Source of the DNA: Nocardia vinacea
GTDB taxonomy: Bacteria > Actinomycetota > Actinomycetes > Mycobacteriales > Mycobacteriaceae
Length of the DNA: 64,000 bases
Direction of reading: 5' to 3'
Assembly (NCBI RefSeq): GCF_035920345.1
Contig: NZ_CP109149.1
Coordinates: 7,006,001-7,070,000 of the forward strand
Shown here: in pieces, positions 12,038 through 58,063 of the stretch
How positions within the stretch are numbered: position 1 is the stretch's first letter
Layout of the letters: the number at the start of each line of letters is the position of its first letter
Program-made: the position numbers and the translations under genes
The notes under the pieces: model-generated
The model's input: only the letters and a program-made list of their open reading frames with translations
What the model was told of the DNA's origin: nothing
Database searches by the model: none

Positions 12038-12427
12038 ATGATGACCAACAAGACGCGCGACAGCAGCATGCGCCGACTATTTGCAGAGGTCGCGCTCATT
12101 GGAGCGGCGATGGCGGTTCCGATGACGGCAGTGGCGGTTCGCGCCATGGCGATGCCGACACCTGAACCAGGTGTAGTGCAGACAGAGAATCCACACTGTC
12201 CGGGCTATGGCCCCGGGTGCAAAGGCGACGGCTGGGGCGGCAACGGCGGCTGGGGCGGCGGCGGCTGGGGCAACGGCGGTTGGGGCGGCAACGGCGGCTG
12301 GGGCGGCGGCGGCTGGGGCAACGGCGGTTGGGGCGGCAACGGTGGTTGGGGCGGCGGCGGTTGGGGCGGCAACGGCGGCGGTTCGAGCCAGTGGTTGTTC
12401 CCCCCGGGCTTGTTCGGCAGCAGCTAA
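12038..12427 (+). CDS. Gly/Trp-repeat exported protein
   Basis: 129 residues. A GGAAGAAGG ribosome site precedes ATG 12038. Residues 1-40 form a signal peptide (RRLFAEVALIGAAMAVPMTA). A short CPGYGPGCKG segment with two Cys follows. Residues 66-113 are three 16-residue repeats of Trp, Gly and Asn (WGGNGGWGGGGWGNGG). The tail is SSQWLFPPGLFGSS. No enzyme features. Gly-rich repeat proteins of this kind are usually surface or cell-envelope proteins. The repeat is encoded by three 48-bp units, so length polymorphism between strains is expected (inference). Confidence 0.7.
   Translation: MMTNKTRDSSMRRLFAEVALIGAAMAVPMTAVAVRAMAMPTPEPGVVQTENPHCPGYGPGCKGDGWGGNGGWGGGGWGNGGWGGNGGWGGGGWGNGGWGGNGGWGGGGWGGNGGGSSQWLFPPGLFGSS
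12233..12376 (+). repeat. Three 48-bp tandem repeats inside the Gly/Trp-rich gene
   Basis: In-frame 48-bp units encoding WGGNGGWGGGGWGNGG; the third unit ends in GGN instead of GNG. The units are nearly identical at the DNA level (GGCTGGGGCGGC alternating with GGTTGGGGCGGC), which points to recent duplication. Confidence 0.85.
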
Positions 12428-12947
12428 CCGAACGAATCCGAGCGTCGCAAGATAGATCTTTCGGCGATGTCGACCATTTCGGTGACATTGCTGCTTGCCC
12501 GTGTCCGGGCGCAGGTAAGGGCGCACCCACCGCGAACCCACAAGTGCGACAACCGAACTGACCGTCGTGCCGGGAGCTGGCGCCGAATACAGGAGGCCGG
12601 CGCAATACCGGGATCGACCTCGCAAGCGCTTGGCATGGCTCGCGTATCACTACGTCGACGACCCGGGCATGTCGGAGCTGGATCGCAGAACACTCGAGTC
12701 AGCCTCGCGAACACTGGCGGCCCGCGTTAAGGGCGCGTCGATACCCCTGCTGTGGGACAGCCCGTCGGAACTGGAGCGCGGGACACTCGAGTCGACCTCG
12801 CAAACACCAGCGGCCCGCTTAAAGGCGCATCGATACCCCTGCTGTGGGACAGCCCGTCGGAACTGGAACGCGGATCTGGCCCTGCGGGCACTTGGCCGAG
12901 GTCCGTGCATCGGCATAACGACGACCCGGGACTGAAGTGTCGTTGGG
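12428..12947. other. Intergenic region containing a tandem repeat
   Basis: 520 bases between the Gly/Trp-rich gene and the convergent transporter. The main content is the 92-93-bp tandem repeat listed separately. No gene recognised; frames that read through the repeat on both strands lack start signals. Confidence 0.5.
12672..12881. repeat. 92-93-bp tandem repeat, about 2.3 copies
   Basis: Unit 1 starts at 12672 (TCGGAGCTGGATCG), unit 2 at 12765 (TCGGAACTGGAGCG) and a partial unit 3 at 12857. Each full unit contains ACACTCGAGTC and ends in CTGCTGTGGGACAGCCCG. The last ~35 bases of units 1 and 2 are almost identical while the middles differ by scattered changes. Confidence 0.85.
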
Positions 12948-29046: not shown

Positions 29047-29136
29047 ACGTCCACCGTAACCACGCCCGCTCACCGCCCTACCAGCCCGGGCTCGCGGGGC
29101 CACCCTGCCCAATCCCCGCCCGCTCACAGCGGTCGG

Positions 29137-29332
29137 CGACCCGACGCACGTCTACCTGCCCACAACGATCGGCCACCCGACACACGCCCACCTGCCCACA
29201 ACGGTCAGCCACCCGACACACGCCCACCTGCCCACAACGGTCAGCCACCCGACACACGCCCACCTGCCCACAACGGTCAGCCACCCGACACACGTCTACC
29301 TGCCCACAACGGTCAGCCACCCGACACACGTC
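29137..29332. repeat. 36-bp minisatellite, five copies plus a partial
   Basis: Units start at 29137, 29173, 29209, 29245 and 29281, with a partial from 29317. Each runs CCACCCGACACACG(C/T)C(C/T)ACC to ACAACGGTCAG. The three units from 29173 to 29280 are identical. The unit is a multiple of three, so all six frames stay open, which is not evidence for coding. The minus strand is G-rich with GGG runs (GGGCAGGTGGGCG) that could form a quadruplex. Confidence 0.9.
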
Positions 29333-36166: not shown

Positions 36167-36934
36167 TCAGGCGGCCGCGAGCAGTGCCTTCGTACGGGCC
36201 GGGTGGTTGGTGGCCACCCAGCTGACGCCCAGGTCGGCGCACAAGCGCACATCGTCTGGATCGTCCACCGTCCAGCAGTAAGTGGCGCGGCCCGCGGCGG
36301 CGGCCTTGTCGACGAGGTCCGGATGTTCGCGCAGGGTTTTCACCGAGGGACCGACGGCGGTCGCGCCGACCGTGGTCGCGGCGCTGCCGCCCAGGTAGCG
36401 CGATGATTCACCGAGCAGGACAGTCGGCAGCAGCGGTGCGGAACGGCGGATCCGCCAGACCGCGGTGGCCGCGAAAGACATGACAACCGCACGGGAGTGA
36501 TCGGCGGAGGCGGGGGTGGCGATGCCGAAGCGCTGGAGTTCGGCGAGCAGCTTGTTCTCCACCAGCGCGCCGTAGCGCACCGGATGTTTGGTCTCGATGA
36601 ACAGCTTCGTCGGCCTACTGCGCCAATCGAGTACCAGCTCGATCAGTTCGCTGAGGGTGAGAACCGATGCGGGAGCGCCGTCGGCCCCGAAGTCGAGTCC
36701 CGCGAGTTCGTCCAGGGTCATTTCGCTGACCAGTCCGGTGCCCGACGAGGTCCGGTCGACGGTGCGGTCGTGCACGCAGACCAGATGCCCGTCCCTGGTC
36801 AGCCGGACATCACACTCCACGCCATCGGCGCCCTCTTGCAGCGCTAGTTCATACGCGGCGAGCGTATGTTCCGGGCGCGCCGCCGACGATCCCCGGTGCG
36901 CGACGACGAACGGTGCGCGACTGCCCTGGCTCAC
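36167..36934 (-). CDS. glpQ: Glycerophosphodiester phosphodiesterase
   Basis: 255 residues with AHRGSSAARPEHTLAAYELAL, which contains HR and the Glu-His pair, and GVECDVRLTRDGHLVCVHD, the second half of the active site, typical of GDPD (glpQ/UgpQ) family enzymes. It hydrolyses glycerophosphodiesters to glycerol-3-phosphate. There is no signal peptide, so it acts inside the cell. ATG 36934 overlaps the stop of the upstream gene by 4 bases (ATGA). It occupies the Rv3842c (glpQ1) position between the ferritin and the membrane gene. Confidence 0.93.
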   Translation of the reverse strand: MSQGSRAPFVVAHRGSSAARPEHTLAAYELALQEGADGVECDVRLTRDGHLVCVHDRTVDRTSSGTGLVSEMTLDELAGLDFGADGAPASVLTLSELIELVLDWRSRPTKLFIETKHPVRYGALVENKLLAELQRFGIATPASADHSRAVVMSFAATAVWRIRRSAPLLPTVLLGESSRYLGGSAATTVGATAVGPSVKTLREHPDLVDKAAAAGRATYCWTVDDPDDVRLCADLGVSWVATNHPARTKALLAAA

Positions 36935-37965
36935 TTGGCCAAAACCTCCTCGTGCTCACGGTGCGGTGTACTTGCTTCGAGCGCGACGGGCTCGGGCTGC
37001 TTCGCCCCGCCGCCACCCGGCTGCACCGGTTCGATAACGGGTACCGCCGGATCGACGGCGATCACCCACCGGCGCGCAGTCCTGCTGCGGCCGAACAGAT
37101 CCCGGCCCGCCATCGACCGCTGCACCCAGAGGGTCAGCACCGCGACCCCGGCCGCGACCAGATCGGTGAACGCGGTGAACAGCACACCATCCGCCTTGGC
37201 CTGCAGGGTATCCGCGGTTCGCCATAGCAGTGCCGCCACCGTGCAGCCCGCGCCGAGCACCCAGCCCACCCACCAGATGTGCACGGCCCGCAGCGTCCGC
37301 GGATCCGGACGCACGGCGACCGTCTCGGTGAGAAATACACCGGGCCACAACAGATTCACCACCGGTATCAGACAGCCGAGTGCGAGCGTCCGGACCAAGC
37401 GCGGGTCACGGCGGCCGGCCGCGGCGAAGGCGGCCCGACGCGTTTCGATCAACCAGCCGAGCATCGCGATCGCGGTGATCAACCCGAGCGCGAGGCCGAC
37501 CAATGCGGAGAGCCACACCATGGCATCGGAGATGTGCAGCAACCACGACGGAATCAGCCGAGTGCGGTTGCGCAGCAGGATCAAATAGCGCCCGAGTTCG
37601 GCGCAGGCGGCGATCGCGAAAACAGCCGCGGTCGCCATGAGTAGCGCACCGGCCCTATTGGTCAGCCGGTCCAGCGGCCGTTGTGGCGCAGACGCGGACT
37701 CGACCGGCGGATCCAATAGCCCCCAGCGCGGAATCTGCTGGTAGCGCGGCGTTTCCACTGGCGGCCGCGGCCGACCGGAGCTCAACTTTCGGGAGCGCTG
37801 ATCGGGACGGCGGGCGACCCAGCGGTAGTTTCGCCGCTCGGCGGGGGCGTCGATGGGCGCCGGTGACAACAGCACGCCACGGCAGCGCGGGCACCAGTGC
37901 ATCGGCGTCGTCTGCACGGCCCAGCGCGCGCCGCAGCGCGCACAAGGTTGTACCACCGTACTCAC
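36931..37965 (-). CDS. Zinc-ribbon membrane protein (Rv3843c-like, DUF4328)
   Basis: 344 residues. GTG 37965 begins VSTVVQPCARCGARWAVQ; with HWCPRCRG this gives two CxxC pairs forming a zinc ribbon. A Pro/Arg linker follows, then about six transmembrane helices from residue ~105 (LLMATAAVFAIAACAEL; VWLSALVGLALGLITAI; LALGCLIPVVNLLWPGVFL; VHIWWVGWVLGAG). The layout fits DUF4328 proteins; function unknown. The GTG overlaps the stop of a preceding 24-codon ORF (GTGA), the last of a threefold leader repeat. Its own stop overlaps the glpQ ATG. Everything is thus chained by translational coupling. Confidence 0.85.
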   Translation of the reverse strand: MSTVVQPCARCGARWAVQTTPMHWCPRCRGVLLSPAPIDAPAERRNYRWVARRPDQRSRKLSSGRPRPPVETPRYQQIPRWGLLDPPVESASAPQRPLDRLTNRAGALLMATAAVFAIAACAELGRYLILLRNRTRLIPSWLLHISDAMVWLSALVGLALGLITAIAMLGWLIETRRAAFAAAGRRDPRLVRTLALGCLIPVVNLLWPGVFLTETVAVRPDPRTLRAVHIWWVGWVLGAGCTVAALLWRTADTLQAKADGVLFTAFTDLVAAGVAVLTLWVQRSMAGRDLFGRSRTARRWVIAVDPAVPVIEPVQPGGGGAKQPEPVALEASTPHREHEEVLAK

Positions 37966-38036
37966 GGTGTCTCCCTTGCGGCATGTCCGGGCCCTTCGTG
38001 GTTACGCAGGCTGCCGCCTGCGGGCCTGACGTTCAT
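37962..38036 (-). CDS. Leader ORF 3 of tandem 71-bp array, 24 aa
   Basis: Copy nearest the membrane gene. Starts MNVRPAGGSL and ends HAARETP. Its stop TGA shares bases with the GTG start of the next gene (GTGA). An AGGGAG stretch before that GTG is part of the unit. It differs from the other two copies at three residues. Confidence 0.4.
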   Translation of the reverse strand: MNVRPAGGSLRNHEGPGHAARETP

Positions 38037-38107
38037 GCTGTCTCCCTCGCGGCATGCCCGGGCCCTCCGTGGTTACGCAGGCTGCCGCCTCCGGGCCTGA
38101 CGTTCAT
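38033..38107 (-). CDS. Leader ORF 2 of tandem 71-bp array, 24 aa
   Basis: Starts MNVRPGGGSL and ends HAARETA, identical in sequence to leader ORF 1. Its stop overlaps the ATG of leader ORF 3 (ATGA). The GAGGGAGA ribosome-site-like sequence 5 bases ahead of each ATG lies inside the repeated unit. Confidence 0.4.
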   Translation of the reverse strand: MNVRPGGGSLRNHGGPGHAARETA

Positions 38108-38178
38108 GCTGTCTCCCTCGCGGCATGCCCGGGCCCTCCGTGGTTACGCAGGCTGCCGCCTCCGGGCCTGACGTTCAT
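38104..38178 (-). CDS. Leader ORF 1 of tandem 71-bp array, 24 aa
   Basis: First in the transcript. AGAGAGGGG sits 8 bases before ATG 38178, 23 bases after the rhodanese stop. Starts MNVRPGGGSL, ends HAARETA, and stops in ATGA with the second unit. The peptide is Gly-rich and basic with two His, no Cys and no hydrophobic stretch. Confidence 0.4.
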   Translation of the reverse strand: MNVRPGGGSLRNHGGPGHAARETA

Positions 38179-38201
38179 GCCGGGTGCCCCTCTCTCTTGC
38201 C

Positions 38202-38573
38202 TCAGTAGATCTTCGCCTGGTGATCGCCGTCCGCAACCAATGGTCGACCCACCCGCTGCCATGCCACCATGCCACCGCTGACATTGACCGCGTCGTATCC
38301 GATGTGCGCCAGGTACTTGACCACCTCGATGGAGCGGCCGCCCTGGCGGCAGATCACATACAGCTGGGCGTCGTAATCCAGCTCGTCGACGCGGGCGGGC
38401 ACATCGGCCATCGGAATATGGATCGCCCCCGGCGCATGTCCGAGCTGCCATTCGTCGTCCTCGCGCACGTCGAGCAGAATCGCCGCCGGGGCGTCCGCCG
38501 CGACACGCTCGGTCTTGTCGAATTCGTCCGGTACGGCTTCCACCGGCACCGACGACACTTCGGGGCTCGTCAC
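38202..38573 (-). CDS. Rhodanese-domain protein
   Basis: 123 residues. A short N-terminus leads to ILLDVREDDEWQLGHAPGAIHIPMADV, the first rhodanese signature, and VICRQGGRSIEVVKYL, the active-site loop with the catalytic Cys in CRQGGRS. Single-domain rhodaneses of this kind carry sulfane sulfur or act as sulfur transferases in the cytoplasm. GTG 38573 (VTSPEVSSV) is preferred over an upstream ATG since it starts at the family N-terminus. The gene is first in a run on the minus strand that leads into the leader ORFs, the zinc-ribbon membrane protein and glpQ. Confidence 0.88.
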   Translation of the reverse strand: MTSPEVSSVPVEAVPDEFDKTERVAADAPAAILLDVREDDEWQLGHAPGAIHIPMADVPARVDELDYDAQLYVICRQGGRSIEVVKYLAHIGYDAVNVSGGMVAWQRVGRPLVADGDHQAKIY

Positions 38574-39089
38574 GCTTCGATCCTGCCATGGGTGGCGCAC
38601 CACGGGGGAGTTCCGGCCCCGCTATGCCGGTGACCCGCAGGCACTTCACGGCCTCGACATCGGCACGTTACCTCGGGTATGTTCTGTGCTTCTGGATCCG
38701 GTCCGATGCCCCGCTCCGGGGCCGCTTGTGCATATCTCGGTCGAAGTTATCCACATAATCCACAGCTTGATCCACAGGCACAGCTATCGAACAGCACACC
38801 ACTCGCAGGCTTCAGCTATCGATCTACAAGGACTGATGCACCGAAACCTGGATCGCTGGCGATACCGAGAGATTGCTGAAGCAAGGCCGCGGTACGAACG
38901 ACCGATCCGAGACTCCCCTCCTTGCCATCTCGGAGCGGTCATTCGCCGCTGCTTCGGGATCTGAGGCTGTGCAGGTCCCGATATCTACTTGGACGCCGCT
39001 GATCGCCGATCGGTTCCCCAAAAAGACCAGAACACTTGCGAATAACTGAAATACCGGGTTCCCGCAGGTGCTGTCGGTAGCCTGGATGC
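38574..39089. other. Intergenic region with DnaA-box cluster
   Basis: 516 bases between the divergent rhodanese and a hypothetical gene. Contains the DnaA-box array at 38747-38776. No other feature recognised. Confidence 0.5.
38747..38776 (+). promoter_or_regulatory. Cluster of three DnaA-box-like sequences
   Basis: TTATCCACA (38747-38755, perfect DnaA box) is followed directly by TAATCCACA (38756-38764) and, after three bases, TGATCCACA (38768-38776). All face the same way. The last two have one or two mismatches to the consensus. Confidence 0.65.
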
Positions 39090-57844: not shown

Positions 57845-58063
57845 GGGATACATCCTTACTCCGTCGCCGTCGAACCGGAAATCCAACCCCCGCCCGCGGC
57901 GCGAACGACGGGCCCGGAGACGGTAGCGCAGCGAAACCACGGAGGGACCCGTGAACACCGCAGTCGAATACAGACGGCCGAAACGCATCGTTGACGCTCC
58001 GATAACCGACATGCCCGGGCGGCCTTCGAGCACCACTACCGCGGCAACGTACACACTGGTGCT

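Follow-up and report, generated by a model that had tools for sequence, protein, structure and literature searches.

The DNA analyzed here, a 64,000-nucleotide stretch of the Nocardia vinacea genome (hereafter, the window), carries on its minus strand a tandem array of three 71-bp units (period 71, TRF score 398), and each unit is a 24-codon open reading frame (ORF). In all likelihood, judging from sequence comparison, this array is a tandemly expanded, Nocardia-specific mobile hairpin repeat, one class of which lies at stop/start overlaps and keeps the downstream gene translated, either by relay or by fusion. The element, whose units measure about 71-78 bp, would probably be a mobile hairpin repeat of the non-autonomous type, presumably still capable of active movement. 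One class of copies would occupy the 4-nt ATGA overlap, or the start codon, between co-directional genes and would be bounded by RTGA on each side. Under relay, a small ORF, typically of 24-26 codons per unit and longer where 75-bp units run together, would end in a stop that overlaps the next start, often with a ribosome-site-like sequence; under fusion, a copy would extend the downstream protein in frame, with the extended starts presumably being used. By either route, translation towards the downstream gene would not be cut off, probably through genuine reinitiation in the case of relay, and the number of units would be altered by tandem duplication and deletion. The level of expression may be affected as well. 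The dispersal of the element, its placement, the empty sites, the reading frames, the copy-number series and the ribosome-site trend are all apparent from the comparisons described below.

The array lies between the genes for a rhodanese-domain protein and a DUF4328 membrane protein, and the relevant features (positions in the window) are the following.

38202..38603, minus strand: upstream gene, rhodanese domain (PF00581)
38106..38184, minus strand: match of the hairpin-element model to unit 1, 79.9 bits
38104..38178, minus strand: unit 1, 24-codon ORF MNVRPGGGSLRNHGGPGHAARETA, the stop overlapping the next ATG
38033..38107, minus strand: unit 2, same sequence as unit 1
37962..38036, minus strand: unit 3, with 6 differences, the stop overlapping the GTG of the membrane gene
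37962..38042, minus strand: match of the hairpin-element model to unit 3, 71.1 bits
36931..37965, minus strand: downstream membrane gene, DUF4328 (PF14219)
36167..36934, minus strand: GDPD/GlpQ gene (PF03009), with a 4-nt overlap between its GTG and the stop of the membrane gene (AAGTGAGCC)
57895..57976, plus strand: second copy of the element in the window, intergenic and uncoupled, 68.6 bits

The architecture given in a preliminary description of this DNA, namely three 71-bp units with 24-codon ORFs chained by ATGA, ATGA and GTGA overlaps, is confirmed in the sequence: the successive stop/start junctions are GCATGAACGT (ATGA), GCATGAACGT (ATGA) and CCGTGAGTAC (GTGA), and the first ATG of the array stands, as had been stated, 23 nt after the end of the rhodanese stop. 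Units 1 and 2 show no difference over 75 nt, and unit 3 departs from them at 6 positions, 3 of which alter residues (G6A, G14E and A24P, the substitutions originally listed), 2 are silent and 1 falls in the overlap. The statement that a ribosome-site-like sequence recurs in every unit holds for units 1 and 2, in which GAGGGAGA precedes the overlap, but not in the same form for unit 3, which has AAGGGAGA at this position. Elsewhere in the window, other tandem arrays are found at 12671-12874 (period 92), 29125-29330 (period 36) and 12224-12379 (periods 15-48), and the copy at 57895-57976 is located between one minus-strand and one plus-strand gene call.

The array is more than a chance repetition: a BLAST search with one unit against the genome of origin yielded 43 matches, the three of the array included. 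A covariance model (R1), built from 44 copies, matched this genome 87 times at E<=1, with 76 of these matches at E<=1e-5, and had matches in all 148 sampled genomes of the genus (E<=1e-3). In a sample of the family, R1 matched 30 of 301 genomes (E<=1e-4), 29 of them from the genus, and in a sample of the order, 8 of 298, comprising 7 from the genus and a weak single match in another family; the genus, family and order searches scored the best 15-31 candidates per genome under strict filters, so that the counts per genome are minimum values and some weak matches could have been missed. Collectively, these searches indicate a repeat dispersed within the genus Nocardia, with almost none outside it; the genus was identified as Nocardia from named orthologues of the adjacent gene. 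The only extra-genus genome with many matches (15 of 15 scored), G161, carries another genus code and is 66% complete; it represents either a sister genus or a misplaced bin.

With a crude gene finder trained on 10 ORFs, we assigned a genomic context to 74 of the 76 R1 matches in the genome of origin, the middle unit of the array being missed: 19 copies fall in gene calls, 6 are ATGA-type by the rule of the script and 49 are intergenic. The intergenic copies comprise 22 in sense orientation between tandem genes (including two that are actually linked, L076 and the second L072 unit), 11 in antisense orientation and 16 between divergent genes. By this crude gene finder, most copies in the genome of origin are uncoupled, lying between genes without an ATGA link, and the ATGA pattern has 8 matches there.

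Across the 44 copies, the left and right arms of the element vary and tend to remain complementary. Pairing between the two arms of the same copy averaged 22.8, compared to 18.2 (sd 0.51) for permuted arms, with none of 5000 permutations as high. In the drawn structure, 81% of the cells pair and two-sided changes number 48, against 16 in shuffles, in a test that leans towards this structure because it was derived from the same alignment. The loop, GGAGG..GG.AGC..GCGTAACCACG, is highly conserved across copies. Such covariation could also be read as the mark of a cis-regulatory RNA hairpin, with the conserved loop and the covarying stem regulating in 5' regions and the ORF being incidental, and it would suit this reading that 38 of the 49 intergenic, non-ATGA-type copies precede a gene read in the direction of the element and that none of the 49, as placed by the crude gene finder in the genome of origin, lies between convergent genes. 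Nevertheless, a single unit folded as RNA shows no unusual stability (z -1.53), the RNAalifold consensus is weak (-4.85 kcal/mol), and Rfam matches are sub-threshold only (mir-5316, the sole match in a search of the array, was rejected), while the 11 antisense copies between tandem genes do not fit and a regulator of this kind would not need the excess of relay seen at ATGA sites. We consider an RNA regulator rather unlikely.

Examination of the rhodanese-DUF4328 junction in relatives provides a view of the element at one position. Among the best 30 orthologous loci, 7 carry units, 2 contain apparent remnants, 3 have a different insert and 18 have none. There are three units in the present genome, two in G045 and one each in G117, G009, G134, G053 and G077. 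In a set of 66 named loci, some of which represent the same species as these coded genomes, one unit is present in N. vinacea, N. pseudovaccinii and N. altamirensis, two are present in N. anaemiae, and a degenerate unit occurs in N. amikacinitolerans and N. xishanensis (model scores of 21.7 and 24.5 bits). In 13 of 13 unit-bearing loci that were read, with the same species included twice in places, the ORF is open, has 24 codons per unit and ends in an RTGA overlap; in the degenerate units of N. amikacinitolerans and N. xishanensis, it is 21 codons long. The comparison of copy number and frame across other Nocardia genomes that the preliminary description had proposed thus gives 0-3 units, in frame wherever read. 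In a 70-protein tree, carriers occur patchily within one clade of 21 rows (support 81/87), a pattern that fits either an old insertion followed by losses or a few insertions, the tree being compatible with both.

The different insert at this junction was found in G017, G080 and G094 (loci L089, L090 and L098), as well as in N. ninae, N. tenerifensis and N. suismassiliense (L134, L162 and L173). Perhaps the rhodanese-DUF4328 junction is a hotspot for short insertions.

Two proposals about the array can be weighed against these loci. One, offered in the preliminary description as the alternative to a functional array, is that the gene's own leader was duplicated in tandem by chance; the identity of units 1 and 2 would agree with such an event, but it is contradicted by the dispersal of the family in the genome and the genus and by the 18 of 30 orthologous junctions without a unit, making this origin exceedingly improbable. 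The other is that copy number works adaptively, as a dial on the DUF4328 membrane protein and on GlpQ. The range of 0-3 units among relatives at this junction, and likewise of 0-3 between species at glfT1 (see below), is what a dial would produce, but neutral tandem slippage is equally expected to give unit variation, and from these sequences we would give the dial little credence.

Empty orthologous sites at other genes show that the element is placed exactly at the ATGA stop/start junction. We compared three genes that we take, from their sequences, to be glfT1, gatA and rluD; Pfam supports glycosyltransferase, amidase and ABC1 domains in genes behind the element. Of 30 glfT1 loci, 10 carry 1-3 units (L308 and L310, a variant outside the count pattern, being read by eye), 2 contain remnants (L299 and L316) and 18 are empty; among 30 gatA loci, 3 are filled, 1 has a short remnant (L319), 25 are without the element and 1 is unreadable (L345); and the 30 rluD loci are divided into 6 filled and 24 empty. 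The typical empty glfT1 site reads CAGGC-ATGA-GTGAGCCG, and the filled one AAGGC-ATGA-unit-ATGA-GTGAGCCG, such that ATGA flanks the units on each side, compared to the single ATGA of empty glfT1 and gatA sites. In G004, three units run in frame with GlfT1, and the glycosyltransferase domain follows them (from residue 77 or 74, depending on the model).

Several individual loci deserve mention. L299, L316 and L319 appear to hold what was left of the element after deletions. At L259, L254 and L264, units of the element may extend the N-termini of GlfT1, GatA and an ABC1 kinase. In the gatA locus L321 (G104), the native ATG after the element is ACG, and the start may now lie inside the element.

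To characterize the coupled class across the genus, we used a pattern for copies starting with ATGA, which was matched in 88 of 148 genus genomes, compared to 0 for the reversed control. We examined 118 distinct ATGA-type sites, a minimum for the genus, consisting of 109 among the places listed and 9 from the genome of origin or the window locus; two loci of the genome of origin, L077 (no RTGA at the right end) and L076 (ATGG on the left), were excluded. The downstream proteins of the 118 sites form 62 clusters, and orthologous sites from related species, which are not independent, are included. A site was classified as relay if its first stop overlaps a start from which a long ORF (at least 110 codons or running off the locus end) is reached, either at once or by way of small ORFs, and as in frame if the first frame enters the long ORF. 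By these definitions, 83 sites are relay, 26 are in frame and 9 are neither, with the first overlap of the relay sites being -4 nt in 82 and -1 in 1. One of the 9 remaining sites, L073, does have a -4 nt link, to an ORF of 69 codons. For comparison, the 338 ATGA on both strands of the window, the array itself included, yield 29 relay cases (8.6%) and 97 in-frame cases (28.7%) by the same rule; when the 118 sites are read in the +2 frame, 5 count as relay and 46 as in frame. Relay at ATGA-type sites is therefore far above chance. Of the 118 sites, 114 have no stop within 66 nt in the ATG frame, and 58 have none in the +2 frame. The proposal of the preliminary description that the array acts by ribosome relay is thus upheld to the extent that relay exceeds the window null and that frames are kept at the junction, both of which are consistent with coupling. 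In-frame runs were dropped as evidence of selection, given 26 of 118 sites against 97 of 338 in the null and 46 in the +2 frame.

The frame in which the element is read differs between sites, with the core read in three phases in 34, 51 and 33 of the 118 sites. With every frame of the core in use, conservation does not extend to the encoded peptide. This bears on the notion that the 24-residue peptide itself is a functional product, for which the retention of the frame across relatives, including the 21-codon form of N. amikacinitolerans and N. xishanensis, might be cited; given the three phases and the lack of a Pfam match to the peptide at E<=0.01, we regard it as very unlikely.

All 42 tandem spacings at ATGA sites, namely 75 (36 cases), 74 (3 cases), 77, 78 and 71, are 0 or 2 modulo 3. 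In the spacing control, which covered 8 tandem loci (L408 gave no array, and L405, which has GTGA at its beginning, may be coupled), the 7 arrays not beginning with ATGA yielded 9 of 10 spacings that are also 0 or 2 modulo 3, the other one being 76; since non-ATGA arrays behave likewise, spacing was abandoned as proof of selection on the frame. At one locus, the three 74-bp units of G118 form three 25-codon ORFs in relay and the three 75-bp units of G007 form one 75-codon ORF; each array overlaps the same gene through a terminal ATGA.

Relay and in-frame junctions also differ in the predicted pairing of the anti-Shine-Dalgarno sequence at the next start, which averages -6.0 kcal/mol for 73 relay junctions and -2.4 kcal/mol for 62 in-frame junctions; pairing of -5 kcal/mol or better is reached by 45% and 13%, respectively. 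With identical tails removed, the contrast persists (57 vs 53 junctions, rank test P about 2e-11, a value that is only a guide because the rows are related by descent). Predicted Shine-Dalgarno pairing is thus stronger at relay junctions than at in-frame ones, with under half of the former reaching -5 kcal/mol.

The closest known system appears to be that of the MIRUs (mycobacterial interspersed repetitive units), like which, to judge from their description, the Nocardia repeat seems to work. MIRUs are described as apparently mobile, inserting at start codons and carrying an ORF coupled at -4 nt (a 2025 review, PMC12548453), as 40-100 bp long and present at 41 locations in M. tuberculosis H37Rv (PMC2734929), and as confined to M. 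leprae and the M. tuberculosis complex (PMC4213456). So described, they share with the Nocardia element dispersed units of 40-100 bp (here, periods of 71-78 bp and the 76 matches in the genome of origin at E<=1e-5), coupling of a small ORF by -4 nt (at 82 of the 118 ATGA-type sites, with just 8 pattern matches in the genome of origin) and tandem copy-number variation (0-3 units between species at the window locus and glfT1). The Nocardia element differs in its host, in its covarying hairpin arms, in its in-frame N-terminal runs and in that the copies in the genome of origin are mostly uncoupled. To our knowledge, MIRUs lack dyad symmetry, whereas the arms of the Nocardia element covary and pair.

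Two other classes of repeats are comparable in part. REP/REPIN elements with RAYT, and MITEs, are short, non-coding hairpins of high copy number. The Nocardia element is likewise a short, high-copy hairpin, but is absent from the vicinity of the two Y1 transposase (PF01797) genes in the genome of origin, whose 3363-bp loci contain no R1 match; in this genome, no RAYT-like transposase could be tied to the element. Rickettsia palindromic elements, as portrayed in the literature, occur in frame with host proteins, measure about 150 bp and encode a conserved peptide (PMC10969869). Palindromic structure and in-frame use in host proteins are common to both; unlike this portrayal, the Nocardia units measure 71-78 bp, lie at gene starts and are read in three phases, and the in-frame cases (26 of 118) are not above the null. 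Among the top-ranked matches in the open-access literature, there was no description of this Nocardia repeat, which does not itself establish its absence from print.

The genus offers a natural series of 0, 1, 2 and 3 units, in relay or in frame, with empty orthologous sites, which allows testing an old proposal, namely, that translational coupling survives the insertion of MIRU-type repeats. For annotation, the implication is that some Nocardia proteins may be assigned, or may have, N-terminal extensions derived from the element.

The right arm of the element varies with its host flank. At the 3 positions preceding the ATGA, the host base and the right arm pair in 92, 94 and 81% of cases, against 70, 84 and 46% in permutations (108 of the 118 ATGA sites with anchorable arms; 0 of 5000 permutations at each position); pairing is weak at position -4 (89 of 5000) and nonexistent beyond it. 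At gatA, the host flank in empty relatives is GGCGA-ATG, and the filled loci of G014 and G097 have CAT-TCGC and CAT-GCG, respectively; at rluD, host CCGT occurs with CATACG (2 loci), and host CCGC with CATGCG (1 locus) or CAGGCG (3 loci). This match may stem from copying of the arm when the element inserts, from the arm choosing its target, from correction mediated by the hairpin or from selection. A more specific possibility, which we put forward only tentatively, is that the right arm, as the reverse complement of the host bases preceding the ATGA, is either copied at insertion or serves as a guide that chooses stop/start junctions, with relay or fusion as the outcome depending on the frame and the ribosome site; if this were true, the element would be a parasite of translational coupling itself. 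The idea that the host serves as the template of the arm at every copy was rejected on account of the uncoupled, intergenic copy L057, which has no clean target-site duplication and possesses a 12-bp arm pair missing from the corresponding empty site of G009, G005, G007 and G008; at L057, the element may have brought both arms, or the arms may have arisen otherwise.
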